Below, piece by piece: positions 2,007-28,000 of a stretch of 39,153 bases of DNA. Under the pieces are notes generated by a model. That model made no database searches, was not told where the DNA came from, and saw only the letters and a list, made by a program, of their open reading frames with translations. How positions within the stretch are numbered: position 1 is the first letter of the stretch; every line of letters starts with the position of its first letter. The DNA lies in the IMG/VR virus record IMGVR_UViG_3300037340_000168, positions 1-39,153 of that record; one strand, given 5' to 3'. A program made the translations under genes and the position numbers. This stretch comes from a virus.

Positions 2007-2028
2007 AACCAAAAATAAGTTGCTGGAT

Positions 2029-3293: not shown

Positions 3294-3294
3294 C

Positions 3295-6727: not shown

Positions 6728-6734
6728 TGGGTCC

Positions 6735-6901: not shown

Positions 6902-7111
6902 GGCGAGCGCGGCGAGCGGTCGGCTCGCGGCTGCGGCGCGGCGGCAGCCGAGCAGGGCGGGGCATTGCCCGCTCGGCATTGACTGTCTCGCGGGAGGATT
7001 GCTGGCCAGCACCGTCGAGGCATCGGCAGCGGCGCGACACGGCCGACACAGGACAGTTCCCTTACGAAAACATCGGGGACCATGGTGCGGACCGGCGGAC
7101 CGTCCGGCGCC

Positions 7112-7264: not shown

Positions 7265-7310
7265 GCTGGGTCGCATCGCCATTTCGTCGCACATCGCCTA
7301 TTCCTATTGC

Positions 7311-7610: not shown

Positions 7611-7631
7611 TTTTTTCTCAAAAGGGGAATT

Positions 7632-10418
7632 TCATGCTGCTATCTCGTCATTCATGGGACTATTTTCGCCATCGTCATCCGATGGCCATTCGACGTTTTG
7701 GCCCACAGCGTCCGCGAAATTCTCTCTCGCATCGGCGAGCGGCGGCAGCAGATAGCACCATGTGCGCCTCGTGACGGTGCCGTTCTCGTCTTGCATTGAC
7801 GCCACTCGCTTGACGCGGTCGAGATCGGGAACAAGCTTTTTCAGCGCCAAGGCAAAAACCATCATTTCGCTTTTGCGTTTAATACCGATCTTCTCCGCGA
7901 CCGCGACGTAATCGTTAAACAGCGACTCGCATGGCACGGCGCGTTCCCATTCGGCGCCATGCCGCGACGTCGAGCCGGACATGAGCCGTTCAAACCACCA
8001 GGAATCGACGGACTTAAGCGACCTGATTTTTTGCTCCAGCAGCGCGGCCGTGCGCGGCGCGTTGCGCAGATCGACGCTGCCGAGATCGAAGGCGAGCAGG
8101 TCGCCGAGCAGGTGCGCGAGACCGCCGGCTTTCAGCTCGGCGTCCATCTCGCGAAAGTAATCGTGGTTTTGAGCGCAGCGCGGATCGACGTCGAGCACGA
8201 AAAAGCGGCGCTCGTCCTTGCCGGCCGGCACCACCCATTCCTCGTTCGACGTCATGATGAGGCGCACGTAATTGGCGAGCCGCACCGGATCGATGCCCTT
8301 GGCCTCGATTTGCTGCATCGGCGCGGTGATGAGGCCCTTAAGGCGCCCTTCGGCGGCTTTGTCTCCCGCCCACACCGCCTCGTCGGCCTGGAGCAAGAGA
8401 CAGCTCGCCATGTGGGCGTTGAATTGGCCGGTGACGTAGCGAGGATCGTCGACCAGAAAATAATGGCGCGGGATGAGCGAACCGATGATCTCGCCGACCT
8501 TGGTTTTGCCAGTGCCCATTTTGCCGCGCAGCACAAGCGCAATGCCGTATCGCTCGCGCGGTCTCTGCATCATGTGCGCAAAAAATCCGAAGACCTGGCC
8601 GAACTTCGCCTCGTCGCCGCTGCACACGTTTTGCAAAAGATGGTCGCGGAAGGTCTTGTATTTGCGCCAGTCCGGCCGCGGCGCCGGCTCGACCGCAAAG
8701 CCGCTCCACAGGTTCAGATAATCCGGCGTGCCTGGCGCGTTCGCGGCATCGGGAAAAAACTCGATACCCTGAAATTGCCGCCGATCGCGCGAATTGAGCC
8801 ACGCCGTCGCCCAGGTCGCGGACTTGATCTTGCCGTCGCGCCCGCGGAATTCGGTGAACCTGTTGCGGAACCAAATCTTGAAACCCTCGACGCCGAGCAT
8901 CCGCACCTGGTGCTCGACCGGAGCTGCCGGGTTTTCCTGAAAAATCACAGCCTGGCTGCCGACCTTCACCAGCGCATACTCCCGATTGAGTTTTTCGACG
9001 CTGTAGCCGAGCGTCCGCGGGCCATCAGGCGGCTCGCCGTCTTCGGTTTCGGGATCTCCAGCATCGCCCGGCTCCGCGGCGCCGTTGCCGCGATCGGCGT
9101 CCGCTGCCGCGGCATCGGATTTTTTTTTTGCGCCGGCCGGCGCGAGAGGGGCCGCCGCGGCGATAATGCCCGCAATGCGTTCCAGCGCCGCGCGGGTGGC
9201 CGCTTCGTCGCCCTTGGCCACGCGCAGCGGGTCGTCGAAATCCTCGCCCTGCGGCGCCCAGGCGACGCGCACGGTGCGGCCCGGCCGGGCATACCGCGCC
9301 GATGCCCGCGCCAGCGCCAGGCGCGTCGTGAAGGGGTCCGACGTCGTATCGCCGAGCAACACAAGGTCGGTGACGCTGTCGGGCACCACGATCGCGGGCG
9401 CTTCAAGATCGGGCACCGGGCCGGCGACTTTTTGCGGCCGGCCGGATTTTGCGTGCTTGAGCGTCGGGTGCGCGACGCTGCCAATCGCCTTGCCGGCGAG
9501 ATTGCCGAGATCGGCCGCCGACCAGAATGCGGTGCGCTCGAGCACCATGGTGGTCGACGAGCTGGCGGTCGCCTCGATCGCCATGTGGACCGCGATCAGC
9601 TTTTCGTTGCCTTCGCCGAGCACGAGCCGCTCCGGGTCGGGCGGACCGATCAGCGCGACATAATTGCCTTGCTTTGAGCCGCGCGATTTTTTCGCGTCCA
9701 GCAGCACGCCGGCGCGCTCGCGAGGATCCTGCAGCGCGATCTTGCCCTTGGGCTGCACCGGGTCGAGATAGGTGAGATGCAGCCCGCGGAATATGCGCGC
9801 CGCATCGATGATCGGCGCCAGCAGCGCCGGCCCGCGGTGCGCGATGGTGTCCTTGTCGAGCCAATAGGGCATAGACTCGACGCATTTGAGCCGCTCGGAG
9901 CGGCCCGGCAGCGTCGAGGGAAAACTTAAGCCGCGCAGCGCCAGATATTCGGCGCCCGAAGAGCCTTCGAGCGGATGCGCGTTGTCCCAGATATCGAAGA
10001 CGGTTTTGCGCTCGCGCTCGCGGTAGAGATTTTCGTCAAGATCGCGGCGGCGCTGTTTTTCGACGGCCTTCGCTTTGAGCTCCTCGGCCTTGCGCCGCGT
10101 CTCTTCGGTGATCGCGCTGTCGCCCTTCGGCGGCGGCTCGCCGGTGATGATTTCGCAGGCCGCCATGAAGTCGACCCTGCAGGCGTGCATCACCATCGAG
10201 ATGACGTTGCCGCCGCTGGCGCCGCGGCAATTGAAGACCTGTTTCGACGGCCGCACCGCGAAGCGGTCCTTGCCGGCGCAAGTCGGACACGGCCCGATCC
10301 ATTCGGCACCGCGCTTGCGCAGCTTGGCGCCGACCTTGTTTGATTGTGCTACTTCCAAAATGTCGGAGTCCGCCGCCCGCGCGCGCCAGGCCTCAAAGGC
10401 TTCGTCGGCGGCGCTCAT
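7632..10418 (-). CDS. Phage primase-helicase (zinc-finger primase fused to D5/VapE-like helicase)
   Basis: A 928-aa replication protein. An N-terminal CHC2-like zinc-finger region has Cys44, Cys47 and Cys64, but the expected fourth Cys is replaced (CRGASGG). A Toprim-like domain follows (about 180-310; LVLGEGNEKLIAVHMA fits the conserved Glu strand). A low-complexity linker rich in Ala, Asp and Gly lies at about 440-485. The C-terminal SF3/VapE-like helicase has Walker A RGKMGTGKTK (about 631-640), a Walker B-like LLLQADEAVW and an arginine-rich sensor region KDERRFFVLDVD. It probably starts replication of the excised element. It ends 20 bp from the iteron region, supporting an adjacent origin. 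ATG 10418 is the first start after the preceding gene. Confidence 0.88.
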   Translation of the reverse strand: MSAADEAFEAWRARAADSDILEVAQSNKVGAKLRKRGAEWIGPCPTCAGKDRFAVRPSKQVFNCRGASGGNVISMVMHACRVDFMAACEIITGEPPPKGDSAITEETRRKAEELKAKAVEKQRRRDLDENLYRERERKTVFDIWDNAHPLEGSSGAEYLALRGLSFPSTLPGRSERLKCVESMPYWLDKDTIAHRGPALLAPIIDAARIFRGLHLTYLDPVQPKGKIALQDPRERAGVLLDAKKSRGSKQGNYVALIGPPDPERLVLGEGNEKLIAVHMAIEATASSSTTMVLERTAFWSAADLGNLAGKAIGSVAHPTLKHAKSGRPQKVAGPVPDLEAPAIVVPDSVTDLVLLGDTTSDPFTTRLALARASARYARPGRTVRVAWAPQGEDFDDPLRVAKGDEAATRAALERIAGIIAAAAPLAPAGAKKKSDAAAADADRGNGAAEPGDAGDPETEDGEPPDGPRTLGYSVEKLNREYALVKVGSQAVIFQENPAAPVEHQVRMLGVEGFKIWFRNRFTEFRGRDGKIKSATWATAWLNSRDRRQFQGIEFFPDAANAPGTPDYLNLWSGFAVEPAPRPDWRKYKTFRDHLLQNVCSGDEAKFGQVFGFFAHMMQRPRERYGIALVLRGKMGTGKTKVGEIIGSLIPRHYFLVDDPRYVTGQFNAHMASCLLLQADEAVWAGDKAAEGRLKGLITAPMQQIEAKGIDPVRLANYVRLIMTSNEEWVVPAGKDERRFFVLDVDPRCAQNHDYFREMDAELKAGGLAHLLGDLLAFDLGSVDLRNAPRTAALLEQKIRSLKSVDSWWFERLMSGSTSRHGAEWERAVPCESLFNDYVAVAEKIGIKRKSEMMVFALALKKLVPDLDRVKRVASMQDENGTVTRRTWCYLLPPLADARENFADAVGQNVEWPSDDDGENSPMNDEIAA

Positions 10419-10463
10419 TCAACGGCTCGTCTCGATCGCGGCTTCGGAAAGCATTCGTCCCGC

Positions 10464-12332
10464 CTAAAGCCCCGGCACAGGGCCGATATCGTCCCAGGCG
10501 TTGCCGACGCTACCGGTTGTGCCTTGTCCTTGTCCCTTGATATCGATTCCATGGGTATCGTTCTGCACGTCGTCGATATGCGCCTTGAGCTGGTCGCCGG
10601 CCTCAACGCGAACTGTCACCGTGGCGTTGCCCCCGACTTTCGGCGAGTCGGAGAGCAAGGCGCGCTCACGAGCAAATGCTGGCCCCTCATCGGAGAGCAG
10701 GGCGCGCATGTGCACCTCCTGCGGCGACATGCCGCCAAAGAGCGCAGAGCTGGTCGCCCAATGGTCTTTCGTCGCGTCCCATATCTTTGATGCGGCATAT
10801 TTGCCCAATTCTCCCGCGCCGAACGAAAACGCAGACGGCAGGGAAATCATGCTCATGGGAATTCTTGCGAGCGAAGCGCCGCGACCGAAAATATCGGCAT
10901 ACCATGCCGTTTTTTCCAAAGCCGACGCATCCTTCGGTGGCCCGATTTGCAGCATCTGGGTGAAATCGCCGATGCTGTGCGCAAGCGCATCGAGATTGGC
11001 CGCCGCGGGGAGTGCCAACGGCGAACCGGCGACCTGCATCAGATTGGTGAGCTGTTCTTCCAGCCCGGTCCATGCCGTGCCCACGTCCTTGTGCATGAAC
11101 GTGTCGGCCGCCTCCAAGCCTGGTGCACCGCGCCAGAGGCCAAGATCCTTTTCGATCCGCGATTGCTGCGTAGCCAAAATGCCGAGCGCCTGGCCTGTTG
11201 TTTGCTTGGAGGCGAGAACCGCCCCCACGTCTTCGAACTGGTCCTTGGTCGTTATGCCGTGAGCTCTAAGAGCAGGAAGAAAAATCTGTTTCATCCAGTT
11301 ATAGGGATGCGCCTTGAACAACGCCTGATCCTTCAGCGCTCCAGGCTCGACGCGCTTGATGATGCCGGACTTGTTGAATTCGATTTTCTTCGGATCGAGC
11401 AGTCCGTATTTTTGCATCATTTTGGCGGCAGACTGCGTCATGTGACCGCCGGCAAACTGCTGGAATAACGCCGACATCGCCACGCCGGCGGAGGCGCCGC
11501 CCATGCTCTGCATAAGTGTGGGCCCGACACCGAACAAAAATTCGTCGTTGAAGCCCTGGCCGGCCGCGCGCGAGCGCTGCGCAAATTCGAAAAAATCATA
11601 TGGCCGCAAAGTGTCGCCGAAGACGTTCATCGCCTTGCCGATCATCTGCATGCTCTTGGCATAGCGCACCGGGTCTTGCGTGATGCCGAGTATTTCCTGC
11701 GCCTTTTGCAGCTTGTCGAAGTCCTCCTCCAATTCCCCTGCGCGCTCGGGATGGCCGCCCTGTACGAGGACGCGCAGCTTTGCCAGCGGCTCAATGATTT
11801 TTGCGGCTTCATCGAACGATCCGACAATCGATCGGGCATTGAGCAGCATGTGCATGAGCGTTGTCTGCGACAGGGCGGGTAGTTTGCGCGACAACTTCGC
11901 CGACGTCGCCTCAGCCTCGGCGATCTCGGCAGGCTCCATGCCGGCGGCTTCCATGCGCACGCGCTGGTGCTGGCCGGCGACGGTCGCCTTGACGGTTTTT
12001 TCCACGGCCTCGGCGGCGGCGGTATAGGCCGACATTTGCGCCAGGCCAAACCCTATGCCGCGTGTGAAGCCGGCCGCACCGCCCGCCGCTGCGATATTCT
12101 TGCTGAAGAGGCGGTCGAGACGCCGGAGCTTTCCCTCCATCTTGTCGATCTCGCGCCCGGCTTTATCGACCGCGGTCCCGACGTGAAGAAAATTGCGGCC
12201 GACACCGTCGACGCGCTTGCCAGCGGCGGCCAGGCGATCGAGCTGCGCTCCGACCCTATCGAAAGCCGCGCCGGTTTGATCCTTGGCGCTGATGATGAGA
12301 TCGGTCCGGAGAGCCTTGGGCGAGGAGGCCAT
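10464..12332 (-). CDS. Probable phage tail tape-measure protein
   Basis: A 622-aa protein with a charged helical N-terminus (SAKDQTGAAFDRVGAQLDRL, then repeated helices to about 80), an Ala/Gly-rich hydrophobic stretch (about 85-125) and long helical middle parts. This is the usual architecture of tape-measure proteins, and the N-terminal 25 residues fit the TP901-type core. ATG 12332 lies 6 bp after a short open frame. Tape-measure proteins set tail length and are normally followed by tail-tip genes, but here the primase follows, so the tail module appears cut off. It is short for the class. Another elongated structural protein remains possible. Confidence 0.65.
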   Translation of the reverse strand: MASSPKALRTDLIISAKDQTGAAFDRVGAQLDRLAAAGKRVDGVGRNFLHVGTAVDKAGREIDKMEGKLRRLDRLFSKNIAAAGGAAGFTRGIGFGLAQMSAYTAAAEAVEKTVKATVAGQHQRVRMEAAGMEPAEIAEAEATSAKLSRKLPALSQTTLMHMLLNARSIVGSFDEAAKIIEPLAKLRVLVQGGHPERAGELEEDFDKLQKAQEILGITQDPVRYAKSMQMIGKAMNVFGDTLRPYDFFEFAQRSRAAGQGFNDEFLFGVGPTLMQSMGGASAGVAMSALFQQFAGGHMTQSAAKMMQKYGLLDPKKIEFNKSGIIKRVEPGALKDQALFKAHPYNWMKQIFLPALRAHGITTKDQFEDVGAVLASKQTTGQALGILATQQSRIEKDLGLWRGAPGLEAADTFMHKDVGTAWTGLEEQLTNLMQVAGSPLALPAAANLDALAHSIGDFTQMLQIGPPKDASALEKTAWYADIFGRGASLARIPMSMISLPSAFSFGAGELGKYAASKIWDATKDHWATSSALFGGMSPQEVHMRALLSDEGPAFARERALLSDSPKVGGNATVTVRVEAGDQLKAHIDDVQNDTHGIDIKGQGQGTTGSVGNAWDDIGPVPGL

Positions 12333-12338
12333 GTTATT

Positions 12339-12509
12339 TCATCCTTGCGATTTTAACGGCGGCAGCGGCGCCGGGAACGGAGCTGAACCCGGCGCCGCGC
12401 CGTCAACAGCCGACGCGGGATCGTCGAAACCGCGCAGCCGCGAGAGGATTTGTTCGGCGCCGTCACCGCGGCACCGGATGGAAAACCGGCGCGCGCCAGC
12501 TCGACGCGC
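12339..12509 (-). other. Start-less +1-frame open segment before the tape-measure gene
   Basis: After the 12463-12858 gene ends, a protein-like sequence (DGAEQILSRLRGFDDPAS, then Ala/Pro-rich) is open in the +1 frame and stops at 12339, 6 bp before the tape-measure start. It has no ATG, GTG or TTG. It overlaps the upstream gene from 12463 to 12509, where the upstream frame could slip into it. In many tailed phages the tail chaperone gene directly before the tape-measure gene is extended by programmed frameshifting. No obvious slippery heptamer is visible, so chance or a decayed gene is possible. Confidence 0.3.
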
Positions 12510-12858
12510 CTAGATCTTCGACGGGCGCCGGTTCGGCCTGGAAGCGCGGCAGCGCGTGCATGACCGGCGCGCGCCATGGCCCCGTATCGGCGGCTATCGA
12601 AGATGGCCCGGTCGGTGTTGGATCCTCGTGGCTGGCGTGGCGAGGCAAATAATGCTTGCCAGCGGAATATGAGATTGTCTCGATCGCGCCGGGGTCTAGG
12701 GGCGGCCTGCGCGCGTTCTCAATGCCGAGAAGATACTGGCCCTCATTCGTGCCGCGACCAATCCCGGATTGCGGCAGCGGGCTCGACATCGGCACATGCA
12801 ATGGCCGATCGGAGATTGCCGAGTGGAGCGTGGGAATGTCTGCGAGGCTCACCTTCAT
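12463..12858 (-). CDS. Unknown phage protein (131 aa), tail-chaperone position
   Basis: I do not recognise this protein. It starts MKVSLADIPTLHSAI at ATG 12858, overlapping the upstream stop by four bases, and ends just before the tape-measure gene. The C-terminal third holds a repeated motif, WRAPVMHALPRF and WRAPVFHPVPR, separated by an acidic linker. Pro and His are frequent and there is no signal peptide or membrane segment. The place between a tail-like protein and the tape-measure gene is where tail assembly chaperones are found, but the sequence alone does not show this. Confidence 0.6.
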   Translation of the reverse strand: MKVSLADIPTLHSAISDRPLHVPMSSPLPQSGIGRGTNEGQYLLGIENARRPPLDPGAIETISYSAGKHYLPRHASHEDPTPTGPSSIAADTGPWRAPVMHALPRFQAEPAPVEDLGASSWRAPVFHPVPR

Positions 12859-13607
12859 GAGCCGACCTGGGCGACGCCGGCCGCGGTCAAAGTCCAAGAG
12901 TTCTGAAAATTCAGCCCAAACGGCCGCAGCCATCCTTGAGCGACCGCATAGTAGGCGCCCGGCAATAAATCTTCGGGAACAAAGGTGTTGCCGCCGACGG
13001 TGCCGACAAAGGTCCCGACGATGCCAACCGCGGTGATCACGCTGCTATTTGCGGTCACTGGCGCGGGCCAAATATTCAAAAGATGCTGGGCGCTCTGTGC
13101 CATCGTAGGAGCCGTGCCGCCGCCCTGCGTCCATCCCGGCTGCTCCAGCGTATAGGTCTGATAGTCGTCGCCGGCGGCCGAGTTCATCGACAGCCAGCCC
13201 TGACCGACGGCGTATGCCAGGCCGTTGACCAGGTCGCTGATCGCATAGCCCGCCGCCAAGAACGCTTTCTGCAGCGCGCCCACAAAATTCGTCGGCGACA
13301 GCGTGGCTAACCTGAAAGTAATGTTCACCTTCGTCAGAGCGTCGTCGACGCTGAACTGATACACGCCGCCTACAACCGAATATTGCAAATGAGACGGCGC
13401 GCCGGACACCAATGTCAGAGCCACGCCGATGATCGCATAGGTTACGCCGCCATCCCAGGTACTGTTAACGGCCACCTTGCCGTCGGTCGGGACGGTGTGC
13501 AGTTCGGTGACCAGCTTGCCGACGCAGACCGGAAATGTGCGGCCTGGCCTCGCGCCGGGAGCAAAGAGGTTGAGAATTTCCTGGGCCGATTGCAGAGATG
13601 TCGCCAT
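12855..13607 (-). CDS. Unknown phage structural-type protein with internal duplication (250 aa)
   Basis: Unrecognised. ATG 13607 follows GAAAGGAAA. The N-terminal half contains QSAQEILNLF, GARPGRTFPV, a mid-section absent from its small paralogue, and QGWLS followed by TYTLEQPGWTQGGG. The second half repeats the theme in weaker form: AQSAQHLLNIW and AVAQGWL, followed by SWTLTAAGVAQVG. The neighbouring 13626-13928 gene encodes one unit of the same family. Position next to the tape-measure gene suggests a tail or virion protein. No membrane segment or signal peptide is seen. Confidence 0.65.
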   Translation of the reverse strand: MATSLQSAQEILNLFAPGARPGRTFPVCVGKLVTELHTVPTDGKVAVNSTWDGGVTYAIIGVALTLVSGAPSHLQYSVVGGVYQFSVDDALTKVNITFRLATLSPTNFVGALQKAFLAAGYAISDLVNGLAYAVGQGWLSMNSAAGDDYQTYTLEQPGWTQGGGTAPTMAQSAQHLLNIWPAPVTANSSVITAVGIVGTFVGTVGGNTFVPEDLLPGAYYAVAQGWLRPFGLNFQNSWTLTAAGVAQVGS

Positions 13608-13625
13608 GATTTTTCCTTTCGGTTT

Positions 13626-13928
13626 TTAGTTGCCACCGCCCTGAACGAATCCTCCTTGTTCAAGGACGTAGGTTTGCATCGCGCTCGATGAGCCTTCACC
13701 GAATGTCCGTCCAACAGAAAGCCAACCTTGCGCCAAGCAACGCGCCAAGCCTTCGGAGAGATCGCTTAGCGTAGCGGACCTCCGAAGGAATTCTTTTTGT
13801 ACCGCGCCGGGAAACCGCGCGGCTTCGAAACTATTCCCGATCGAGATCGGAAACGTGCCGCCGGGCCGCGCGCCGCTTGCGACAAAGATCATGAGAATTT
13901 GCTGGGCCGAATGCTCAGGGGTCGCCAC
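13626..13928 (-). CDS. Small paralogue of the 250-aa neighbour (100 aa)
   Basis: The protein matches the N-terminal half of its downstream neighbour: HSAQQILMIF, SGARPGGTFPI, a GAVQKEF helix, QGWLS and TYVLEQGGFVQGGG align in order. I place the start at GTG 13928, not further upstream, because GTGGCGAC with AAGGGAAA before it aligns exactly with the ATGGCGAC start and ribosome site of the neighbour. It lacks about 45 residues present in the larger copy. Tandem duplication within the element is the simplest origin. Function unknown. Confidence 0.6.
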   Translation of the reverse strand: MATPEHSAQQILMIFVASGARPGGTFPISIGNSFEAARFPGAVQKEFLRRSATLSDLSEGLARCLAQGWLSVGRTFGEGSSSAMQTYVLEQGGFVQGGGN

Positions 13929-13938
13929 GTTTTTCCCT

Positions 13939-14072
13939 TCAGTTTTTGTCGTCAAAAATATTCGGCTTGTCCCAGATGTTCGGAATGTCTTTCGACGGCG
14001 GCGGCACTATCGGTGCGGGCATATCGCGGCGCGGCGTTTGATCGGTTTGTCGGCTTGGTGATTGTTGCTCAT
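13939..14072 (-). CDS. Two very short overlapping open frames (21 and 27 aa), doubtful
   Basis: Between the 100-aa gene and the secreted-protein gene, one frame runs from ATG 14072 to TAG 14007 (MSNNHQADKPIKRR start). A second runs from ATG 14022 to TGA 13939 (MPAPIVPPPSKDIPNIWDKP start). They overlap as if translationally coupled, and the second ends 10 bp before the next start. The proline-rich second peptide looks protein-like, but both are too short to assign. They may be remnants. Confidence 0.25.
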
Positions 14073-14095
14073 TTCGGGCTCTCGCTATCGAGTGA

Positions 14096-14617
14096 TTAGC
14101 TCCGCCGCGCAGCCGCAAGCACGCGCGCCTGCGCAGCCGGCCGATAATCCGCACGGGTGAAAGCGGCGCCGGATGCGACGGCGCGCGCGAGCTGGATTGC
14201 AGGCGCCCCTTTTTGCTCGCCGTGCTGTTGGATAATCTGGCGCGCGCAGACCTTGGCGAGTCTCAGTTGGGGGCCGTCTCCAGGCGCCACGCCCAACTCG
14301 AACAATCTGAACGGCAATTCCAGACCTCGTGGCTCGTCGGTCGCCGCCGCCGGCAGAACCTTTGCCAGATGCCGTTGCATCGATGCAGCGAGCCCAGCGC
14401 GCGCCGCGGTGCCGCGCTCCTTCGCCGCCGCAGCCTGCGCCGCATCGACGAACGCTATTGCGCGCTCCGCCGTTACCGGCGCCGCCGCCGCCGGCACGCG
14501 CGGCGGCGCCAGGCCAGCATTCCATTGCCCAGCATCGAGGGCAGCGCGATCGCTGACACTGAGGCCGGCGAGAAAAACGGCGGCTAAAGATGACCTCATG
14601 ATTGCGTTCTTTCTCAT
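14096..14617 (-). CDS. Unknown exported phage protein (173 aa)
   Basis: Starting at ATG 14617 the protein opens MRKNAIMRSSLAAVFLAG, a short basic then hydrophobic segment resembling a signal peptide, with possible processing near Ala20-Ala30. The rest is Ala-rich and helical (RAIAFVDAAQAAAAKERG and similar) with a basic C-terminus. I find no catalytic motif. Location in the late-type operon would fit a virion or lysis-accessory protein, but nothing in the sequence proves it. An upstream start at 14728 would overlap the previous gene and hide the signal peptide. Confidence 0.5.
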   Translation of the reverse strand: MRKNAIMRSSLAAVFLAGLSVSDRAALDAGQWNAGLAPPRVPAAAAPVTAERAIAFVDAAQAAAAKERGTAARAGLAASMQRHLAKVLPAAATDEPRGLELPFRLFELGVAPGDGPQLRLAKVCARQIIQQHGEQKGAPAIQLARAVASGAAFTRADYRPAAQARVLAAARRS

Positions 14618-14666
14618 TTTCCATGACGCGGAAGGCTGACAAACTTCGGCACACTGAGAACTTTGC

Positions 14667-15407
14667 TCAAACAAAATTGCCCCAGAACTCCGATCGCATT
14701 CCGCGAAACGACATTCCGTCAACGACAAAATCCGCGTCCGAGTAATAGAAACCGGCCGCCTGAAATGTCTCCCAGAGAGGCGTAAGCCGAATAGCGCGGC
14801 AGCCCTTGACGATCCGCTTTTCTTTCACTTTTTTGGTCGGCGGAATGTCTCCGACGTTAAGATGAACATCTCCGCGCGACTCGATGACTTTGTCGACCTC
14901 GATTTCTTCCTCGTGATCGGGCTCGGCATCGATCCAGCGGGGCGCATCGATATGAGGAAGCGGCGCAAAGCCATTCGGCAGATTCCCGTTAACCGCCTGC
15001 GCGGCATCGTGCCGAGCCTTTCTATTCTCCAAAAAGCGCAGCGCTGCGCCGCAGATGGAGTCCCATTCTTCCTTGTCGTTCTCTGCAGCTTTTAGCCCTG
15101 CCGCTGCGGCGTGATAGTTTTCAATCAGCTTGGCCTGCTTTTCGCTCTCTAAGGCCGCATCGCCGTTGGCTTTTGCATCAAGAGCTTTTCGCTCCGCGAC
15201 ACTGCGGGCCGCAGCAACGCGTGTCGTCTTCTCCCAATGTTTTAGAAGAGCCTCCTCGCCCGCGCGTTCTGCAGCGGGCACGCCGATCGTCAATCGATCG
15301 TGTTCCGCCGCAAGTTCGCTGTACTTCGCGCGGTACCCCGCCTCGTCGGCATAGAATTCGGCCGACGATTTCAAGATTGCCAAGGGAGGAGAGGTAGCGG
15401 CTTTCAT
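14667..15407 (-). CDS. Unknown coiled-coil phage protein (246 aa)
   Basis: The first 135 residues are charged and helical (EHDRLTIGVPAAERAGEEAL, EKTTRVAAARSVAERKALDA), consistent with a coiled coil. The C-terminal 100 residues are mixed, with an acidic stretch DHEEEIEVDKVIESRGD and an end rich in aromatics (YYSDADFVVDGMSFRGM). No enzyme motif, signal or membrane segment is visible. It lies in the same leftward run as its neighbours. Scaffold-like or structural roles are possible but unproven. Confidence 0.6.
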   Translation of the reverse strand: MKAATSPPLAILKSSAEFYADEAGYRAKYSELAAEHDRLTIGVPAAERAGEEALLKHWEKTTRVAAARSVAERKALDAKANGDAALESEKQAKLIENYHAAAAGLKAAENDKEEWDSICGAALRFLENRKARHDAAQAVNGNLPNGFAPLPHIDAPRWIDAEPDHEEEIEVDKVIESRGDVHLNVGDIPPTKKVKEKRIVKGCRAIRLTPLWETFQAAGFYYSDADFVVDGMSFRGMRSEFWGNFV

Positions 15408-15516
15408 CGGGGCGACTCCATCTGCCGAATGCCAACGCGTTGATGGCTATTCGTGCCGAAGGACGCCGATTCCAGCTAGGAACAAATCCCACAAAAAGAA
15501 CAAGAAGAAAAATCAA

Positions 15517-16380
15517 TTACTTAGAAAGGGAGAATTCGGTCGGATCGAATTTCTTAACAGCGCGGTTGATCGACGCGAGGATGGCCTTGTCGCTATGCCA
15601 AGGCCAACCGCGCTTATCATATTCAACGTGCATCGGGTTGATATAGTAGCTTGGTCCAAACAGGCTAAGTCTCGCTTTTACCGCGACCAAACTTATAGCA
15701 GTCCTCATATCTCCGGGTGGCAAGCCACGGTCTTTGAGCAGCTTTTCTAGCGAAACCTCATCAAGCGCGACAATCTTTTTGTCGTCGGCATCTGGCTTCA
15801 CTTCCGCGCGGGCGACAAAAAGGGCAGACGATTGCAGCGCCAAAAAATAAAATGAGCCGAGCTTGCCCGATGCCGTCGCTTTGTGGGGGTCTAGGACGGT
15901 GATGTACTTCCAAGTGTCCGCCGTAAAAATAGTTTCGGAGACATCAATCGACCCGCCGCGCGCCGAAAACAGCCAGTCGCGTTCAAGCTCCAGCCATAGC
16001 GGCCGGTATACTTCGATCTCTTCGTCCACTTCCTTTTCGGAATCGGAAATCGGCGGCGTGCATTCAGGCTCTACCTCTGCCCAGAGCGAAGAATATTCGC
16101 CCGACTGACACGCCTCATTAACCGAGACGCCGCGAGAGCGGATTATTTCCGAAACCCTCTTTTTGGCGATCCGCGATCGATCGACTTCGCGCCAGAGGGA
16201 TTTCAATTGCTGCAGCTCGCCGACCGGGCGCTCCCAGTAATCAGGATTCCGTCGCAAGGGAAGCAGTGCCGCAATTTTTTTCTGCACCCGGTCCACCGTC
16301 TCAGACGGCGGAAGCCGGCGCAGGAAGCCATCGATAAATTCCAGCGGCGACATTCCAGTGAGTGAAAAGGGCATTTGCAT
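15517..16380 (-). CDS. Unknown phage protein (287 aa)
   Basis: I do not recognise it. ATG 16380 is preferred because it overlaps the stop of the preceding HTH gene (TGATG), giving a start MQMPFSLTGMSPLEFIDGFL; an earlier in-frame start at 16539 would lie inside that gene. The protein has acidic middle segments (SDSEKEVDEEIEVY), then a possibly alpha/beta C-terminal half (SGKLGSFYFLALQSSALFVA, VKARLSLFGPSYYI). No signal peptide or catalytic motif is evident. Base composition is a little less GC-rich than in the flanking genes. Confidence 0.6.
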   Translation of the reverse strand: MQMPFSLTGMSPLEFIDGFLRRLPPSETVDRVQKKIAALLPLRRNPDYWERPVGELQQLKSLWREVDRSRIAKKRVSEIIRSRGVSVNEACQSGEYSSLWAEVEPECTPPISDSEKEVDEEIEVYRPLWLELERDWLFSARGGSIDVSETIFTADTWKYITVLDPHKATASGKLGSFYFLALQSSALFVARAEVKPDADDKKIVALDEVSLEKLLKDRGLPPGDMRTAISLVAVKARLSLFGPSYYINPMHVEYDKRGWPWHSDKAILASINRAVKKFDPTEFSLSK

Positions 16381-16721
16381 CAGCGCCTCGATCTCGTCTT
16401 CCCGGCGCCGCGCGATCCGCGCCGCGAGCCACGCTCCAGCAATTCGCGAACTTCGGTTAACTGCGACGTCGAGGCGCCAGCCGCGGATATGGCTGCGCGG
16501 CGCGCGGCCGGCGTTCGGCGAGACGATTCTGACGGGCACGGATAGGCCATGCGGATGCGCTCGATGTCGCCGACGGTGAATAGCTTATTGCGACCAAAGC
16601 CGCCGTAAAAGGCAACGCCCTGCACATCGCGCGGATTTTTCTTGAGCCAATCGCGCAGCGACCGCTCGCCGGTGCGCAGGTCGGCGGCGGCTTCGCGGAT
16701 CAGCTTATAGGGCGTTTGCAT
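16380..16721 (-). CDS. Small helix-turn-helix-like DNA-binding protein (113 aa)
   Basis: The first 65 residues fit an excisionase/MerR-like winged helix: RSLRDWLKKNPRD, a turn, YGGFGRNKLFTVGDIERIRMAYPCP. The same pattern is found in the rightward gene at 19138 (RRWLVEFLQ, YRLAGRDKLVYFDRMIEAFPC), so the element carries two related proteins. The C-terminal tail is basic and Ser/Arg-rich. It starts 13 bp after the protease-like gene and overlaps the next gene by TGATG. A role in excision or gene control is inferred. Confidence 0.6.
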   Translation of the reverse strand: MQTPYKLIREAAADLRTGERSLRDWLKKNPRDVQGVAFYGGFGRNKLFTVGDIERIRMAYPCPSESSRRTPAARRAAISAAGASTSQLTEVRELLERGSRRGSRGAGKTRSRR

Positions 16722-16733
16722 TGGTTGCCCGGA

Positions 16734-17429
16734 TTATTGATCCATCGAGAACGCGGCGCGGATGATCGCCACGGCAGGTTTGCCATCCAGCCGGCCGGCG
16801 CACGCAAGGCTGTCCGCCAACGCTTCCACGGCGCGCCACGCTTTCGGCTCATCGAAGATCTCCGAAGCTTGGCTAAGCCCATGGTCTATAATTTCGGCGG
16901 CTTCCTCGTCAGTCAATCCGGCAAGCTTGCAGGCCCCAACAGCATATGCCTTATCGTCTTCGCATTCGTAGCCTTTCAGTACCTCGCTGGGCATTTTTCC
17001 TAAAAACTTAGCTTCTGCTGCCGGACCGGCGAGATAAGCAAGAACCTTGAGCGAAGCCCATCTCGCCACGTCGATGCCGGCGGCTTTGCATGCCGTGACT
17101 TGCGCAAGAGCGACGGCAGGATCGGGCGGATCGAGAGACTGTGGAACCGGATTTGCTTTTAGATAGTCCATCATCGGGCGCGAATAGTTCGGCCCGAATG
17201 TGACCCCCGATGCCGACACCATGGCTTTGCCGTCGAGGGTCGGCCGCGGGTGCGGATCGAGATCAATTTCCATATAAAAGATTGCTTCTTCGGCTTCGAA
17301 ACCAAGTTCGCGAGCTGTAACGAACCGCGCAACCGCATGCCCGGCTTCATGTATGGCTGTTGCCTTCGCGAGGCTGCCACTTGATGAGCGTACCTGTTTC
17401 GCCCGGCCGCGCCGCTCACGTCGATTCAT
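16734..17429 (-). CDS. Stand-alone M41 (FtsH-like) zinc protease
   Basis: A 231-aa protein with HEAGH at 27-31 (zinc ligands His27, His31; catalytic Glu28), then LAGPAAEAKFLG and ECEDDKAYA, which match the region of FtsH-type M41 peptidases that supplies the third zinc ligand. FtsH's AAA ATPase and membrane anchors are missing, so the domain is free-standing and probably cytoplasmic. Its targets are unknown; cleavage of a repressor or host factor, or virion maturation, are possible. It follows the Tat-like-signal gene by 62 bp and precedes an HTH gene by 13 bp. Confidence 0.7.
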   Translation of the reverse strand: MNRRERRGRAKQVRSSSGSLAKATAIHEAGHAVARFVTARELGFEAEEAIFYMEIDLDPHPRPTLDGKAMVSASGVTFGPNYSRPMMDYLKANPVPQSLDPPDPAVALAQVTACKAAGIDVARWASLKVLAYLAGPAAEAKFLGKMPSEVLKGYECEDDKAYAVGACKLAGLTDEEAAEIIDHGLSQASEIFDEPKAWRAVEALADSLACAGRLDGKPAVAIIRAAFSMDQ

Positions 17430-17491
17430 GTCTCACCAAATTGATAATGGGGCGATCGAAGGCGAAGCCCGCGAGCGCCCCGCTGCTGATC

Positions 17492-18721
17492 CTACGCGAC
17501 GGTCTCAGGCCCGGCAAAATGCGGTGCTGCCTTTTCCACCGCCGTCAACTCCACGAGATCGTCGCAAATATTGCAGCCAATCTCGTGGTCGTCACCGGCA
17601 AATTCCAAGGGCGCCAAGCCACGGCCGCGGTTCAGATGGAATTGCGCCAGGCGAGCCTTGACCGCCAAGCCCTCGATCGTGGTCGCGCGGATATTGGCGA
17701 TGCTTTGCCAAAGCCGGTCGAGATCGTCGAGCCTCGCGTCGTATTGCGTATCGAGGCGGGCCAAGCCGAGCGATGTGGCCTGCTCCCGGCGCGCGGCCGT
17801 GTACGCGTCCGCAGCGCCGATGATCTCGTCGGCGCGCTCGCGAGCGCGCCGCATCCAATCTTCGGCGTTAAACATGCCCCTCATCCGGCGCGGCACCGCG
17901 TCGAAAAAGTTTTCCCAGCCCTTGGCCTGCCGCCGCCGCAGCTTGCCGATATCGGCCGACGTATAGAAGCCGTCGACGAGATCAAACTGAATCGGGAAGA
18001 TTTCGTCACCATCGCGGCGGCGCATCGCGTCGCTCGGCAGCGGCTTGTGCGCCTCGTGTTTGGCCTCCGCCGCGTTGAGATCGCGGCGCGCGATCTCGGC
18101 CGCGCCAATCGCCAGGTCGAGCGAAGCGCCGAGCTGCAGCAACTCCGCGTCGCCGTCCGCCGTGAAGTCGGCCGCCGCGCGCTGCAGGCCGGCAAGCGAA
18201 CGATTCAGGCTGGCGAAGAAAGCATGCTGCTCGGCGCGCCCGTTCAACTCCTCGTCAAAAAAACCCTCGCCAAAAACCACGCTGGATTGATGATCGAGAA
18301 AGCGCGCATAGGCCGCAAGACCTAATAGCGTGGTCGGCGCGGTCGACGCGAGATTGAGACGCGAAGCCAAAATTTCTTCCGTGCTGGCCTCACAGTCGAC
18401 GACTTCGCCCGCATCCGCTAAATCGCAGAGCCGATCGGACCCGGCGGACGCTCTCTGGTAGCGCTCGATCGCCGCGAAGATCGGATCGGGCGCGGACGCG
18501 GCCGGCTCCGCAACGGAAGCGGAGACGATCGAAGGCGCTAAGATGGAAACTGACGCGACAGACGCAACAGACGCACGCATGAACGCTCTCCTCGTTTTTG
18601 CTGGTGACCCGGTCGAAGCCGCCTCGGCAACCGCCAGGCGTGGCATGGCAGCGCCGTCGACTGGCGCGGCAACGGCGCTGGCGCTATGCGCCGGCACAAT
18701 GAGCGAACGATTGTGGGACAT
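17492..18721 (-). CDS. Unknown protein with Tat-like signal (409 aa)
   Basis: Residues 43-70 contain TRRAFMRA followed by a small-residue hydrophobic stretch ending SIVSASVAEP, resembling a twin-arginine export signal after an unusually long leader. The rest is helical (many Ala, Arg, Asp) with a C-terminal CNICDDLVEL pair of cysteines. Similar long hypothetical proteins occur in rhizobial prophages, with no function known to me. It is the first gene of the long leftward run, so the hairpin array at 18855-18955 would lie in its leader. A shorter start at Met26 or Met48 is possible; Met48 would remove the signal. Confidence 0.6.
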   Translation of the reverse strand: MSHNRSLIVPAHSASAVAAPVDGAAMPRLAVAEAASTGSPAKTRRAFMRASVASVASVSILAPSIVSASVAEPAASAPDPIFAAIERYQRASAGSDRLCDLADAGEVVDCEASTEEILASRLNLASTAPTTLLGLAAYARFLDHQSSVVFGEGFFDEELNGRAEQHAFFASLNRSLAGLQRAAADFTADGDAELLQLGASLDLAIGAAEIARRDLNAAEAKHEAHKPLPSDAMRRRDGDEIFPIQFDLVDGFYTSADIGKLRRRQAKGWENFFDAVPRRMRGMFNAEDWMRRARERADEIIGAADAYTAARREQATSLGLARLDTQYDARLDDLDRLWQSIANIRATTIEGLAVKARLAQFHLNRGRGLAPLEFAGDDHEIGCNICDDLVELTAVEKAAPHFAGPETVA

Positions 18722-18854
18722 GGGATGCTCTTGAGGTTCGGCTTTCCAAGGCCGTCGCCGGTGTCAGACCGGCAGCCGGGAGTTGGAAACCTGCTCAAGA
18801 GACAGGTCGGCACGCTTTTAAGGGTTTCCCCTCTGGACATGGCGCACCGCTCCC

Positions 18855-18955
18855 GGCCATGATGGCCAGGTCGGCGCGCCCGCCAAGGCGCGTCAGTGCG
18901 CATAGAGCCCGCCAAGGCTCGCCGCGCGCAGCCCGCGAACCCCGCCAAGGGTCGC
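18855..18955 (-). promoter_or_regulatory. Array of hairpins with identical CGCCAA loops
   Basis: Three hairpins share the ten-base core CCCGCCAAGG but have different outer stems that still pair. They are 18873-18894 (GGCGCGCC/GGCGCGTC, one G-T), 18905-18920 (GAGCC/GGCTC) and 18935-18955 (GCG-A-ACCC/GGGTCGC, one bulged A). Loop spacings are 29 and 33 bases. A fourth palindrome, GGCCAT-G-ATGGCC, lies at 18855-18867. On the minus strand, in the leader of the 18721 gene, the loop is TTGGCG. Covarying stems suggest a structured RNA or a protein-binding array; no gene covers them. Confidence 0.6.
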
Positions 18956-19000
18956 CGGCCGATCTTGAGTCAGGGCTTCCAAACCCATCCGAATCATACA

Positions 19001-19039
19001 CGGGAAACCGGCGATTGTGAATCGCCGGCAGATCTCCCG
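19001..19039. promoter_or_regulatory. Nested inverted repeat in the divergent intergenic region
   Basis: CCGGCGATT and AATCGCCGG (19008-19028) are perfect 9-bp arms around GTG. An outer pair CGGGA/TCCCG (19001-19005, 19035-19039) encloses them and is followed by TTTT. Because the genes on both sides point away from it, an operator for the divergent promoters is more likely than a terminator, although the shape would also suit one on the plus strand. Confidence 0.45.
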
Positions 19040-21756: not shown

Positions 21757-23352
21757 TCAGTGCGAGGGAAGACGGAGCAATTCGTGCTGTCGGGACCATT
21801 CGGGTGGCAAGTCGGTGAGGCGAGCGACGCCCATGCCATGCGGTAGTCGGCCATCGATGGCTGCTTTGACGAGATCGGGTGCGAGGAAGGCAAGCGAGAT
21901 CGTCATGTTTACTTTGCGGATGCTGCAATCCTCACGGTTCGCGATGCTTTCCGTGGTTGCTGATGGATCAATTGTAAGTTCATCAAGCCAACGGCGTCCT
22001 CGGGCAATGGCGGCGACCAATGTCGCCCGTGATTCCGAACGGATCGGTCGAGCATGTTGCGGCGGCATCCCCTCGGGCAGAAGAATCTCACGGCGTCGCG
22101 TTGATGGCGTCCTTTGCCACGGGACATGAAGAGCGCCATTGGCTCTGGTCTTCTTGCGATTGCCTGTCCCATTCGGCTCTTCGGTAAGGCGGATGACCAA
22201 TTGCTTCGGTTGAATCTCAACGCGTGCGACCCGGGTATTAATGAGGTTTCGGTCGTCAATAGGCTGGGACAGTTTGAGGTGCTCTCGAACCGATTTGATG
22301 ACTAGCGCCTCGACATCAGTCGCCGGCACTCGGCGCACCGATCCGGCGCGTTCGGCTGTGCCTTGGAGGAGGGCCGAAGACAGATAGTATCGGTATTTCA
22401 CGTTGCCCCTGCGGGCATGGCTCGGGGTCATGCGGTTGCCGCGATCGTCGAAGATACGGCCGGCCAGGAGAGCCTCGGATTTCATCCATTTGGCATTATG
22501 GTTGGTGACCTGCTGATTTAGCCTCGCTTGGACAGCATCGAACAGAGCCCTGTCCAGAATGGCAGTTTGCTCGCCCTTGAGGACTTCGCCTTTGAAAGCG
22601 ACTTCGCCGATGTAGAAGCGATTACGGAGAAGTTGTGCGAGCGAGCCCCGCGCAAACGGTATGCCGCCGAGGCGCTTACCTGTCTTAAGTTTACGGAGCT
22701 TGGTAACAATGCCCCGCTTGCGCAGATCGGCCATCAGGAGGTTGAGGCTGCCAAGCTTGACATAGCTGCGGAAGATGGTTCGGACCCGGTCGGCCTCGGC
22801 TGCATTGACTGTGATCTTTCGATCTTTGGCGTCATAACCAAGGGGCGTCATGCCTCCGACCCAGAGCCCCTTGCGTTTGGATGCCGAAATCTTGTCGCGG
22901 ATGCGCTCGGAAGTGACCTCACGTTCGAATTGGGCAAAGGACAGCAGCACATTGAGCGTCAGCCGGCCCATGGATGTGGTGGTGTTGAACTGCTGGGTGA
23001 CCGAGACAAACGATACATTGTGCGCGTCGAACAGCTCGACGAGCTTGGCAAAATCGGCCAAGGAGCGGGTCAAGCGGTCCACCTTGTACACGACGATGAC
23101 GTCGATTTTTCCCGCTCCTACGTCCACTAGGAGCCGCTGCAGGGCCGGCCGGTCGGTGGTGCCACCCGAGAAGCCGCCGTCGTCATATTTGGCTCTTAGC
23201 AGGGTCCAACCGGCATGGGCTTGGCTGCGGATATAGGCTTGCGAGGCGTCATACTGGGCGTCTAGCGAGTTAAAATCCTGCTCCAGCCCCTGGTCGGTCG
23301 AAACGCGGGTATAGATTGCGCAGCGCACCGCCTTCGCCGATCCGGCCTTCAT
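21757..23352 (-). CDS. Large serine recombinase with C-terminal HTH extension
   Basis: A 531-aa recombinase. The N-terminal resolvase domain has AIYTRVSTDQG with nucleophile Ser18, DDGGFSGGTTDRPALQRLL, and VYKVDRLTRSLADFAKLVE, followed by QFEREVTSERIRDKI. A recombinase domain and a zinc-ribbon-like region occupy the middle, though its cysteines are mostly missing. The last 90 residues (ATLVAAIARGRRWLDELTI, IANREDCSIRKVNMTISLAFLAPDLVKAAI) form a ParB/KorB-like HTH, which the second module (36570) encodes as a separate gene. It overlaps the DUF2924 stop by ATGA. Confidence 0.9.
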   Translation of the reverse strand: MKAGSAKAVRCAIYTRVSTDQGLEQDFNSLDAQYDASQAYIRSQAHAGWTLLRAKYDDGGFSGGTTDRPALQRLLVDVGAGKIDVIVVYKVDRLTRSLADFAKLVELFDAHNVSFVSVTQQFNTTTSMGRLTLNVLLSFAQFEREVTSERIRDKISASKRKGLWVGGMTPLGYDAKDRKITVNAAEADRVRTIFRSYVKLGSLNLLMADLRKRGIVTKLRKLKTGKRLGGIPFARGSLAQLLRNRFYIGEVAFKGEVLKGEQTAILDRALFDAVQARLNQQVTNHNAKWMKSEALLAGRIFDDRGNRMTPSHARRGNVKYRYYLSSALLQGTAERAGSVRRVPATDVEALVIKSVREHLKLSQPIDDRNLINTRVARVEIQPKQLVIRLTEEPNGTGNRKKTRANGALHVPWQRTPSTRRREILLPEGMPPQHARPIRSESRATLVAAIARGRRWLDELTIDPSATTESIANREDCSIRKVNMTISLAFLAPDLVKAAIDGRLPHGMGVARLTDLPPEWSRQHELLRLPSH

Positions 23353-23840
23353 GCCGAAGCCCCTTTTGCCGGCTTATCTCGCAGGCCGAAGAACCTCGGC
23401 CCATTCCAACGGGTGCCGGTGATCGCAAAGGCAGCCTGCGACAGGCTCGGATAGGTCTTGCCGTTCCAGGCAAATCCGTTGGCGAGCACGGACACCCGTT
23501 GCATGCGCCCATTCCATTCACGGCCCAGGACGGTGCCCGGCCGCACATCCGCGATACGCCGAACCAAGCGCACGGCTTTCTGTCCTGCCTTCTCAGGAGA
23601 CTCGGAACGATCAAGCAGATTCTTGCTCTCGCCATCCAGGTCACCGAACCGGTCGGCCTGCAGCCGATAAGCCAGGATGCGAAACAGAAGATGCCGGGGC
23701 AGGTGATGGGGCGGCTGCCGCCCTATAATGCTTTGCCAACGGCCGCGAAGTTCTTTGACGCCGAGATCGCGTAAGCACGCGATCTCGGCCTCGAGTTTTT
23801 TATGGTCCGGCAGCGCAGGACCGATCCTTACGCGCGGCAT
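23349..23840 (-). CDS. DUF2924 protein (recombinase partner)
   Basis: A 163-aa member of DUF2924, whose hallmark is seen at the end: FAWNGKTYPSLSQAAFAITGTRWNGPRFFGL. The N-terminal half includes LGVKELRGRWQSIIG and HLLFRILAYRLQADRFGDLD. Members are nearly always encoded just upstream of a serine recombinase in Rhizobiales and related groups, as here with a four-base overlap, so the two probably act together; the biochemical role is unknown. Confidence 0.9.
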   Translation of the reverse strand: MPRVRIGPALPDHKKLEAEIACLRDLGVKELRGRWQSIIGRQPPHHLPRHLLFRILAYRLQADRFGDLDGESKNLLDRSESPEKAGQKAVRLVRRIADVRPGTVLGREWNGRMQRVSVLANGFAWNGKTYPSLSQAAFAITGTRWNGPRFFGLRDKPAKGASA

Positions 23841-24786: not shown

Positions 24787-25023
24787 TCACAATTTCATTA
24801 CAAGTTTGATCTGGGCATCGATCCACGAGACTTGTGAGGAATTAGCTATTTCCTTGCAAGTGAGAGTCTGCCCATTCCCGAGTTCTTGGTAGCCCTTGTT
24901 TGGGAAGCACTGTCGATTGGTGGTAACCGGCGACCGTCCGCCCAAGTTAGGCCAAAAGCCTGTGGTATCGATTCGCCAGCCGTCAAAGGTTTGCCGGGCG
25001 TTGGCCCGGGCGAAAGCAGCCAT
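24787..25023 (-). CDS. Possible small divergent protein (78 aa)
   Basis: This frame runs from ATG 25023 to TGA 24787, divergent from the caspase-helicase gene, whose start is 46 bp away. It reads plausibly (FDGWRIDTTGFWPNLGGRSP, QELGNGQTLTCKEIANSSQV) with normal codon use and two Cys, but I do not recognise it and see no clear ribosome site. If real, it could be a partner or inhibitor of the neighbouring protein. Chance is a fair alternative. Confidence 0.3.
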   Translation of the reverse strand: MAAFARANARQTFDGWRIDTTGFWPNLGGRSPVTTNRQCFPNKGYQELGNGQTLTCKEIANSSQVSWIDAQIKLVMKL

Positions 25024-25068
25024 TGCCTCGCTGCTTGGGAATGGCGCCGAATAAAAAAGGAGTGGGTC

Positions 25069-28000
25069 GTGGCGTTCAAAGGGCTGTTCATTGGGGTCGA
25101 CCGCTATGCGTCGCCCGACGTCAATTGGCTAAGCTGCGCTACGCGGGACGCGAGGGCGCTGCACGCTATGTTTACCGACAATCTTGGTGGTAGCGCCAAG
25201 CTGCTCGCTGATGAGCAAGCGACACGGGCATCGATTCAGCAGGAATTTGAGGCTCTCGCGAATTGTGACGTCGAGGACGTTGTAGTGATCGGTTTTTCTG
25301 GGCACGGCACCGATACCCACCAGCTTGTGACCTATGACACAGGCTTGGAGGACCTCACCGACACAACCATCCCGCTGGAAGAACTGAGAGTTTGGTTTGA
25401 ACGCATACCGTCGCGTCGCCTTGTGCTCTTTTTGGATTGTTGTTTCTCTGGTGGCATGGGCGCCAAAGTGCTTCATGCCGATGGAGTTCCGCGCGATCCG
25501 ACCTCTGTTGAGGCGCGTTTGGCGAATCTGTCAGGCGACGGTCGACTCATCGTCACTGCATCGGGGCCGACCGAGGCCGCCTATGAAAGCCCGCGATTGC
25601 GGCACGGGTTTCTTACCTATTACCTGCTTGAAGCCCTACAAGGCGCCGAGGAAGTTCAGGATGCAGGACGAATCCCCGTTTATCGCTTGCTCGAATACAT
25701 TACGCGCCGAGTGGTCGATGCGGCCGATAAGGTCGGTCACCCACAACACCCGACGGTGCGCGGGCAGATCGATCGCGAACTCGTTTGGCCGCTATTCAAG
25801 CCGGGTATGCTGTATGAGGCCGCCTTTCCAGAGCGAGCTCGTTCTGTCGCCGCAGCCGATGTGGTCAGCCTGGCAGTCTTTGGGTTTCCCGCACATCTGC
25901 TCGCGGCTTGGAGCGGCGCAATTCGAGAGATAAATCCGCTTCAATTGGCGGCAATCAATGAATACGGCGTTCTTAATGGAGAGAATGTTTTAGTGTCGGC
26001 CCCGACATCGTCCGGTAAGACTATGATCGGAGAGCTTGCGGCATTGCGCAGCATCCTTGATCGCCGACGCGCACTATTTCTCTTGCCGCTAAAGGCCCTT
26101 GTTAACGACAAGCTGCGTCAGTTTCAGCGGCTCTATGCCTCCTTTGGAGTGAGAACGATCGAAGCAACCGGCGAGACCGATGACATTTCGCCGCTATTAC
26201 GCGGGCAGTATGATATTGCGCTCCTGACCTACGAAAAATTTGCAGCTATTGCGCTGGCTTATCCGCATGTCATCGAGCACGTTGGTACCATTGTGGTTGA
26301 TGAAGTGCAGATGATCGCGGACGCCTCGCGCGGCGCTAATCTGGAGTTTTTGCTGACGCTGATCCGTATGTTGGCCCGCAGTGGCATTGCCCCACAACTC
26401 GTTGCGCTGTCGGCGGTGATCGGCGACACCAACGGCTTCGAGCGGTGGCTTGGCGCAAGATTGCTTCGGCGCACCGAGCGGCCCGTTCCACTGGATGAAG
26501 GCTTGTTGCTTGCCGACGGCCGTTTCCGGTATCTCGACGGAAAGAGCGGCGTAGAAGGAGTGACTGAGCCTTTATTTAGGCCGATTTATCGGAAGGGCAG
26601 CAGCCAAGATTGGGTAATACCGCTAACCCAAAAACTCGTCGCCGAAGGCAAACAGGTTATCGTTTTTCGGGAGAGGAAGGGCGACACCCGTGGCTGCGCC
26701 AACTATCTGGCAGAGAATTTGAGATTGCCTCCGGCAGCGGAGGCGCTGCGCATGCTTCCGACCGGCGACCCTTCCCTTGCGTCATCCGCGCTACGCTCGG
26801 CCTTGCAGCGAGGCGTCGCTTTCCACAATGCCGACCTGAATCCGGGTGAACGGCGGGCCGTTGAGGAAGCCTTTCGGCAGGAGGACTCCACTCTACGCGT
26901 AATCGCCGCTACGACGACGCTTGCGATGGGTATTAATACACCTGCGGCGGCTGTTATTGTCGTAGGCTTAGAGCACCCTGGCCAAGTTCCATACAGCGTC
27001 GCAGAGTATAAAAATATTGTCGGTCGCGCGGGGCGTCTGGGTCATGCCGAGCGCGGAACCTCATATTTGCTCGCAGTCGATGGCCTTCACGAGCACGATT
27101 TCTGGAACCGCTATGTCCGGGGAACGCCGGAAGACCTGCAATCCCGGTTTCTTGGATCTACCACCGATCCGCGCACGCTCATCATCCGCGTCCTGAATGC
27201 GGCACGCCGGTCGGTTGACGGCGTCACCGCCGAGGAAGTAATCGAGTTTCTAGAAGCCAGCTTTGGAGCTTTCCAGGAGATCCAACGCAACGGACACTGG
27301 AAATGGAGTCGCGACGATTTGGCAGCCTCACTGAGGGACCTCGCACAACATGGTCTAATCGAAATCAAGCCGGATGGGAGCCATCGCCTGACGCCGCTGG
27401 GTCAACTTGCTGGTCAGGGCTTATGCGAAGTCGGCTCTGTGGTGCGATTAGTTGACTGTCTGCGTCCACTTGGGGATCGCGAGATTTCCGACCCGGCCCT
27501 TATCACAGCCGTGCAAGCTACCATTGAGCTGGATCAGGTACTCTTTCCTATTAATAAGAAAAGCACGCAAAAGGAGCCTCAGGCCTGGGCGCAGGAACTG
27601 CGGAACCAGGGAGTTTCGCACCTCATTCTTCGGAATCTCCAACGCGACGTAAGCTCTCAACATGAGGCGACGCTGAGGGCCAAGAAAGCCGTCGCTTGTT
27701 TGCTGTATATATCCGGTCGCCCCATAGAGGAAATCGAGCGTATTCTAACTCAATTCGGCGGGGCGTCTGATGGAGCTGCTGGCCCGATACGTGCGGTCGC
27801 TTCCAGAACCTGTGATATGCTTCGCACAGCGGCCGACATCGCTGAAATTCTGCATCCCGGTCTTGATCTTGCGGAACGCGTCAGCCGCCTGTTGGTTCGG
27901 CTGGACTTGGGCATTGCGGGAGCGGTAGTTGAAGTGGGCCGCATAGCACGATCGCAGTTCTCGCGTAGTGATTATCGACGTCTGGCAGCGGCAGGCTTTA

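Follow-up and report, generated by a model that had tools for sequence, protein, structure and literature searches.

The window analyzed here, a viral DNA of 39,153 nucleotides, carries on its minus strand a leftward prophage operon that adjoins tRNA-Met and runs from a first gene with a Tat-like N-terminus to an integrase. The protein of gene 1 has no match in Pfam, PHROGs or NCBIfam, and a search for relatives of the window's gene 1 found none. Capsid, portal and tail genes were not matched among the genes scanned in the element at tRNA-Met (1931-18721), which may for that reason be a satellite or a remnant; no second copy of the attachment-site repeat at its tRNA-Met end was found in the window. 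Elsewhere in the window, positions 24886-28170 of the plus strand encode a protein of 1094 aa that combines a DEAD helicase domain with a caspase-like peptidase domain (Peptidase_C14), possibly a defence protein, near a serine recombinase and a DUF2924 gene (21757-23840).

Ahead of gene 1 the minus strand presents, in order, a predicted promoter, a target segment termed a1/b1, an array of three hairpins, a three-helix core, a second target segment termed a2/b2 and the ATG at 18721, which together make up about 280 bases of putative control RNA. The individual features are as follows.

18993..19021, minus strand: predicted promoter TTCACA-17-TATGAT, with 10/12 consensus matches (shuffle expectation ~0)
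18973..18986, minus strand: a1 hairpin GGG-UUUGGAAG-CCC, whose loop holds a1 (UUGGAA), close to where the transcript is predicted to start
18963..18969, minus strand: b1 (CUCAAGA), complementary to b' of the core
18938..18953, minus strand: array hairpin 1, GACCC-UUGGCG-GGGUU
18905..18920, minus strand: array hairpin 2, GAGCC-UUGGCG-GGCUC
18875..18892, minus strand: array hairpin 3, CGCGCC-UUGGCG-GGCGCG
18771..18857, minus strand: C4-like three-helix RNA core, comprising the P1 stem, P2, the P3 hairpin and a linker
18794..18802, minus strand: b' (UCUCUUGAG), an element-specific segment of the P3 loop with complementarity to b1 and b2
18783..18789, minus strand: a' (UUUCCAA), in the single-stranded linker from P3 to the P1 3' strand, complementary to a1 and a2
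18740..18753, minus strand: a2 hairpin GGC-CUUGGAAA-GCC, with a2 complementary to a'
18728..18735, minus strand: b2 (CUCAAGAG), which holds a Shine-Dalgarno-like GAG 7-9 nt ahead of the AUG
17492..18721, minus strand: operon gene 1, 409 aa
2029..17429, minus strand: rest of the leftward prophage operon, with primase (7632-10418), TerS-like (6071-6727), TerL (4023-6074) and integrase (2029-3117) genes

In the 39-kb window there are exactly three copies of the 10-mer CCCGCCAAGG, at 18879, 18908 and 18941 (spacings of 29 and 33), while near-matches with one mismatch are dispersed through the rest of it. The array lies on the sense strand of the leftward operon, with its UUGGCG loops at 18948, 18915 and 18886, and when both strands of the window were checked for UUGGCG hairpins with at least 4 bp, only the three of the array were found. 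The earlier note had correctly placed these hairpins just before gene 1 of this operon, whose ATG at 18721 is downstream of the array. In single-sequence folding the array taken alone is not better than shuffles (z -0.19); thus the window by itself proves little about the hairpins, and homologs decide.

Plain blastn against phage and plasmid collections gave no match. Among ten relatives of the operon primase only one contig (L007) carries the leader, with the same three-hairpin array, and its alignment with further array-bearing contigs shows that the array makes up the first half of a conserved leader of much greater length; in the window the conserved structure spans ~18719-19021, of which the earlier note had covered the array only. 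A core pattern taken from the second half of the leader matched 23 viral-contig and 48 genome-contig stretches. Five of the matches (L152, L160, L161, L183 and L195) were rejected as chance, having no array and in no case a significant score with R1, the covariance model built from the core alignment, and 64 leaders were analyzed after chance matches and poorly parsed cases had been dropped. True members with named hosts are all alphaproteobacterial (Bradyrhizobium, Methylobacterium, Nitrobacter, Reyranella, Shinella, Paracoccus, Aurantimonas and Phenylobacterium among them), and the homologs are flanked by temperate-phage genes for tail, portal or integrase proteins. An ATG follows the core after 50-55 nt in nearly all homologs, although the encoded proteins differ; a conserved first gene behind the leaders was considered and rejected in view of this diversity. 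Two kinds of protein do recur after leaders, an acidic kind with an IERLIxFLDxxDxDPDLEPSLG-like motif and a kind with Tat-like signal sequences, to which gene 1 of the window belongs. One viral contig (L141) has two array-type leaders (773-856 and 4397-4483) that lie within 3.6 kb and differ in their a/b sequences, and in the first of them the a2/b2 site is apparently lost.

Hairpins with the UUGGCG loop are found at -45, -75 and -108 in 61, 45 and 49 related leaders, respectively, and within 125 nt upstream of the CAUGUCCAG motif there are three UUGGCG copies in 36 leaders and two in 22. The innermost three to four stem pairs are essentially always paired while switching among CG, GC, AT and TA, and the closing pair likewise is CG, GC, AT or TA. 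In hairpin 1 (49 leaders) pairs 1-4 are paired in 97-100% of 42 distinct sequences, compared to 39-87% when the two sides are shuffled; in hairpin 2 (45 leaders) pairs 1-3 are paired in 36/36 distinct sequences, with a z of 12.7 for complementarity to the hairpin's own arm; and in hairpin 3, which is present in 61 of 62 leaders, pairs 1-4 are always paired across 31 distinct sequences. The description of three hairpins with an identical loop and compensated stems is therefore borne out, since homologous leaders keep the loop while the stems covary, and the homologous arrays with stem covariation that were to be sought in prophages of Rhizobiales do exist. The argument that the repeats do not encode a protein also holds, in that the hairpin spacings in homologs are spread evenly over all three frames. 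Within 407 kb of related DNA, 71 UUGGCG-loop hairpins fall inside leaders and one outside, and the latter adjoins a further leader (in L158), which indicates that these hairpins are restricted to such leaders; that UUGGCG is simply a generic stable loop of these genomes was rejected on finding only the background rate outside leaders.

Comparison of leaders places the array at the position that a terminator holds in sister leaders, and its loop has two versions. TTTTT is found in the spacer of 1/60 array leaders, as against 9/9 array-less leaders of the sRNA-Xcc1 type, and no terminator-like site was found when the window leader was inspected for an intrinsic attenuator (a G+C-rich hairpin plus a U-run). 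The second version of the array, with the loop UUGCCG and two or more hairpins per leader, is present in L217/L230, L218, L223, L226 and the viral contigs L271 and L303; L227 has one UUGCCG hairpin plus a variant. Hairpin 3 and P2 of the core show cross-complementarity (z 4.3-4.6) that is no more than suggestive of strand exchange between the two, a reading that was set aside. A separate group of core relatives without the array (L201-L216) has a1/b1 together with a different spacer hairpin; these often precede small membrane-protein-like ORFs, and one genome (G059) has three copies that are 47-49 kb apart. Some members of this group (among L202-L216) have a clear a1/b1 and no obvious a2/b2 at the first gene, which counts against the antisense switch proposed below.

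The core, for which R1 gives the window 97.8 bits, is supported by an alignment of 58 distinct sequences in which 98.2% of positions assigned to stems are paired and 112 cells are double-changed, compared to 29 expected from shuffles; 0/500 shuffles reach as high, and the signal collapses when partners are slid by 1-3 columns. The predicted minimum-energy fold of the core has the same topology as the alignment structure, with a conserved CAUGUCC/UAAAA internal loop in P2. The segments a and b vary between elements yet match inside each, with z values of 12-18 against permuted partners, in a test where relatedness makes partners alike and so opposes the signal, and where the dependence among sequences is not wholly removed. 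Complementarity to the element's own partner has a z of 14.3 for a1:a' (62 leaders), 12.3 for b1:b' across homologs, 17.6 for a2:a', and 15.9 for b2:b' (63 leaders), which in the window is an 8-nt complement. In the window b2, with its GAG, ends 6 nt upstream of the ATG, and most homologs have a similar arrangement. At the other end of the leader, the homologs conserve a promoter-like sequence (-35 TTG, A/T in the -10, 17-nt spacer) directly upstream of the a1 hairpin, and the site of this hairpin in the window gives a weak match to Rfam c4-a1b1 (10.4 bits, under gathering). The suggestion in the earlier note of a leader-RNA array is upheld; what that suggestion had missed is that the array is only the spacer of a larger C4/CI-like leader with target sites at both ends.

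An antisense switch as such is strongly supported by the covarying structure and the pairing code, and it is very probable that the hairpins form the spacer array within an antisense-RNA switch of the C4/CI type by which the leftward prophage operon is silenced. The predicted promoter would produce a leader consisting of a1/b1, the UUGGCG array, a core that exposes a' and b', and then a2/b2 over the Shine-Dalgarno-like sequence. By analogy with C4 of P1/P7 and CI of P4, the core would be excised from the leader, probably by RNase P, and would then accumulate; once freed it could pair, in cis or in trans, with both a1/b1 and a2/b2. Such pairing would block translation of gene 1 and favour premature termination, leaving the operon off. 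A lysogen would thereby be immune to phages that share its a/b sequences, with the element-specific a/b pairs constituting the specificity of immunity.

The same elements might instead form a translational riboswitch or attenuator that acts in cis only, where b'a' pairs either with a1b1, leaving the Shine-Dalgarno sequence free, or with a2b2, hiding it, and a ligand or protein on the array and core shifts the balance with no free antisense RNA being made. It is true that b'a' can pair with only one of a1b1 and a2b2 at a time, all of them covarying, and that constant array loops and core residues would be expected of a part that binds a ligand or protein; however, the core matches the antisense fold of C4/CI, in which all known members are set free and work in trans, and sRNA-Xcc1, a relative, occurs as a free 88-nt RNA giving a single Northern band (PMC2996969), so that we consider a cis-only switch quite improbable. 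Repeated double-stranded DNA sites, whether operators or iterons, were another option in the earlier note and could be imagined from imperfect palindromes lying close to a promoter. This option is hardly credible, as the stems are free to change if pairing is kept (G-U included) and the loop alone is constant, whereas DNA sites would call for conserved stems; moreover, the array is downstream of the conserved promoter and invariably between a1b1 and the RNA core.

To return to the C4/CI-type switch, the role of its array is read entirely from position and conservation. The array loops, which stay constant across elements of differing specificity, most likely bind a constant factor, probably host-encoded, that would help the leader to be processed or would aid termination or antitermination. 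That a protein or antiterminator binds there, as envisaged in the earlier note, is possible. A more specific version, in which the array is a nut/put-like site whose bound factor enables read-through of the long operon, with the antisense core in a secondary role, would account for three copies with a constant loop near the transcript start, with the long operon behind and no intrinsic terminator in the spacer, but it is rather unlikely given that the array is seen only together with the antisense core and that the first gene shows no protein family common to all the elements. It is less likely still that the loops engage in kissing with a complementary CGCCAA, be it a loop or a strand, located in another RNA or in the P2 strand of the core. 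UUGG obeys the YUNR U-turn rule of antisense recognition loops (PMC4485353), and most cores have CGCCA, CGUCA or UGCCA immediately upstream of UGUCC; nevertheless, UUGCCG arrays violate the rule, one leader (L180) combines UUGCCG loops with a CAUGUCCAG core bearing CGCCA, and two others (L155 and L138) combine UUGGCG loops with non-matching cores. These three leaders contradict pairing of the array loops with the core P2 strand, which was rejected. Our own broader proposal is a tentative one that may well prove wrong: the constant-loop array (UUGGCG/UUGCCG) would be a new phage leader element. In alphaproteobacterial phages of many immunity types it would serve as a multi-copy docking site for a factor, probably encoded by the host, and would stand in for the intrinsic attenuator found in C4-type immunity leaders, so that termination under antisense control would depend on that factor.

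Most descriptions of P1/P4-type RNA-based immunity concern phages of gamma- and betaproteobacteria. The leader family of the window is common in alphaproteobacterial temperate phages and apparently undescribed, an unlisted yet widespread family with many element-specific pairing codes that heads the early operons of temperate phages of Bradyrhizobium, Methylobacterium, Paracoccus, Reyranella and others; if the proposed mechanism is true, superinfection immunity of these phages should be predictable from short a/b sequences. RNase P releases the C4 RNA of P1/P7, in which a' confers specificity and b' covers ribosome-binding sites (PMC5320573); the CI RNA of P4 causes premature termination when it pairs with seqA on its upstream side and seqC on its downstream side (PMC4825925). 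A control scan of P4 shows a c4-a1b1 target whose a1 occupies the loop of a GGG..CCC hairpin and is followed by b1, and a C4 core that places b' in the loop of a hairpin and a' in a linker. The window leader shares with C4 and CI (RF01695, target RF03163) the 5' a1/b1 target with a1 in a GGG..CCC hairpin loop; a three-helix RNA with P1 as closing stem, P2, a P3 whose loop holds b', and a linker that holds a'; another target where the downstream gene begins, with the b site overlapping the ribosome-binding site of gene 1; the element-specific a/b sequences; and the position at the head of a prophage operon. It differs from both in a longer P2 containing the conserved internal loop, and from P4 in its spacer, which is a UUGGCG hairpin array instead of an isrK-like element ending in a U-run. 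The RF01695 covariance model has no match in the window at E up to 10 and R1 does not find P4 C4; because the models fail in both directions the family is not filed under Rfam C4, and common descent of its core with C4 proper is unproven. Judged by structure and pairing code, the window leader has all the parts of the C4/CI plan that can be read from sequence and belongs to a distinct family that would work like C4/CI. The Gifsy-1 isrK / STnc1160 leader is likewise a prophage leader in which paired antisense segments control first-ORF translation (PMC4825925), but it is gammaproteobacterial and without a hairpin array; a search for isrK in the window gave no match.

The integron- and island-borne sRNA-Xcc1 (RF02221) of Xanthomonas and Xylella, currently discussed as a virulence regulator, has the same fold, detectable common sequence and reciprocal weak-to-moderate covariance-model matches: RF02221 gives the core of the window 25.6 bits and that of L007 36.5 bits, both below gathering (53 bits), and R1 gives RF02221 loci 20-35 bits, including members above the RF02221 gathering score. 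On these matches sRNA-Xcc1 is a sister family of the window core, from which it differs by an AUACAA-type P2 internal loop and by a spacer with either an intrinsic terminator/U-run (in the 9/9 array-less loci, mostly after a clear hairpin) or a UUGCCG-loop array. By inspection, sRNA-Xcc1-type loci (L217, L218, L219-L235) have a1b1, a'b' and a2b2 ahead of the start codon, and sRNA-Xcc1 is thus probably itself a C4-type antisense silencer of its downstream gene. In the Xanthomonas integron cassette with the widest spread it is located ahead of symE (PMC12444791), which is consistent with this reading, and C4-type silencing of the downstream gene offers a testable explanation for sRNA-Xcc1.
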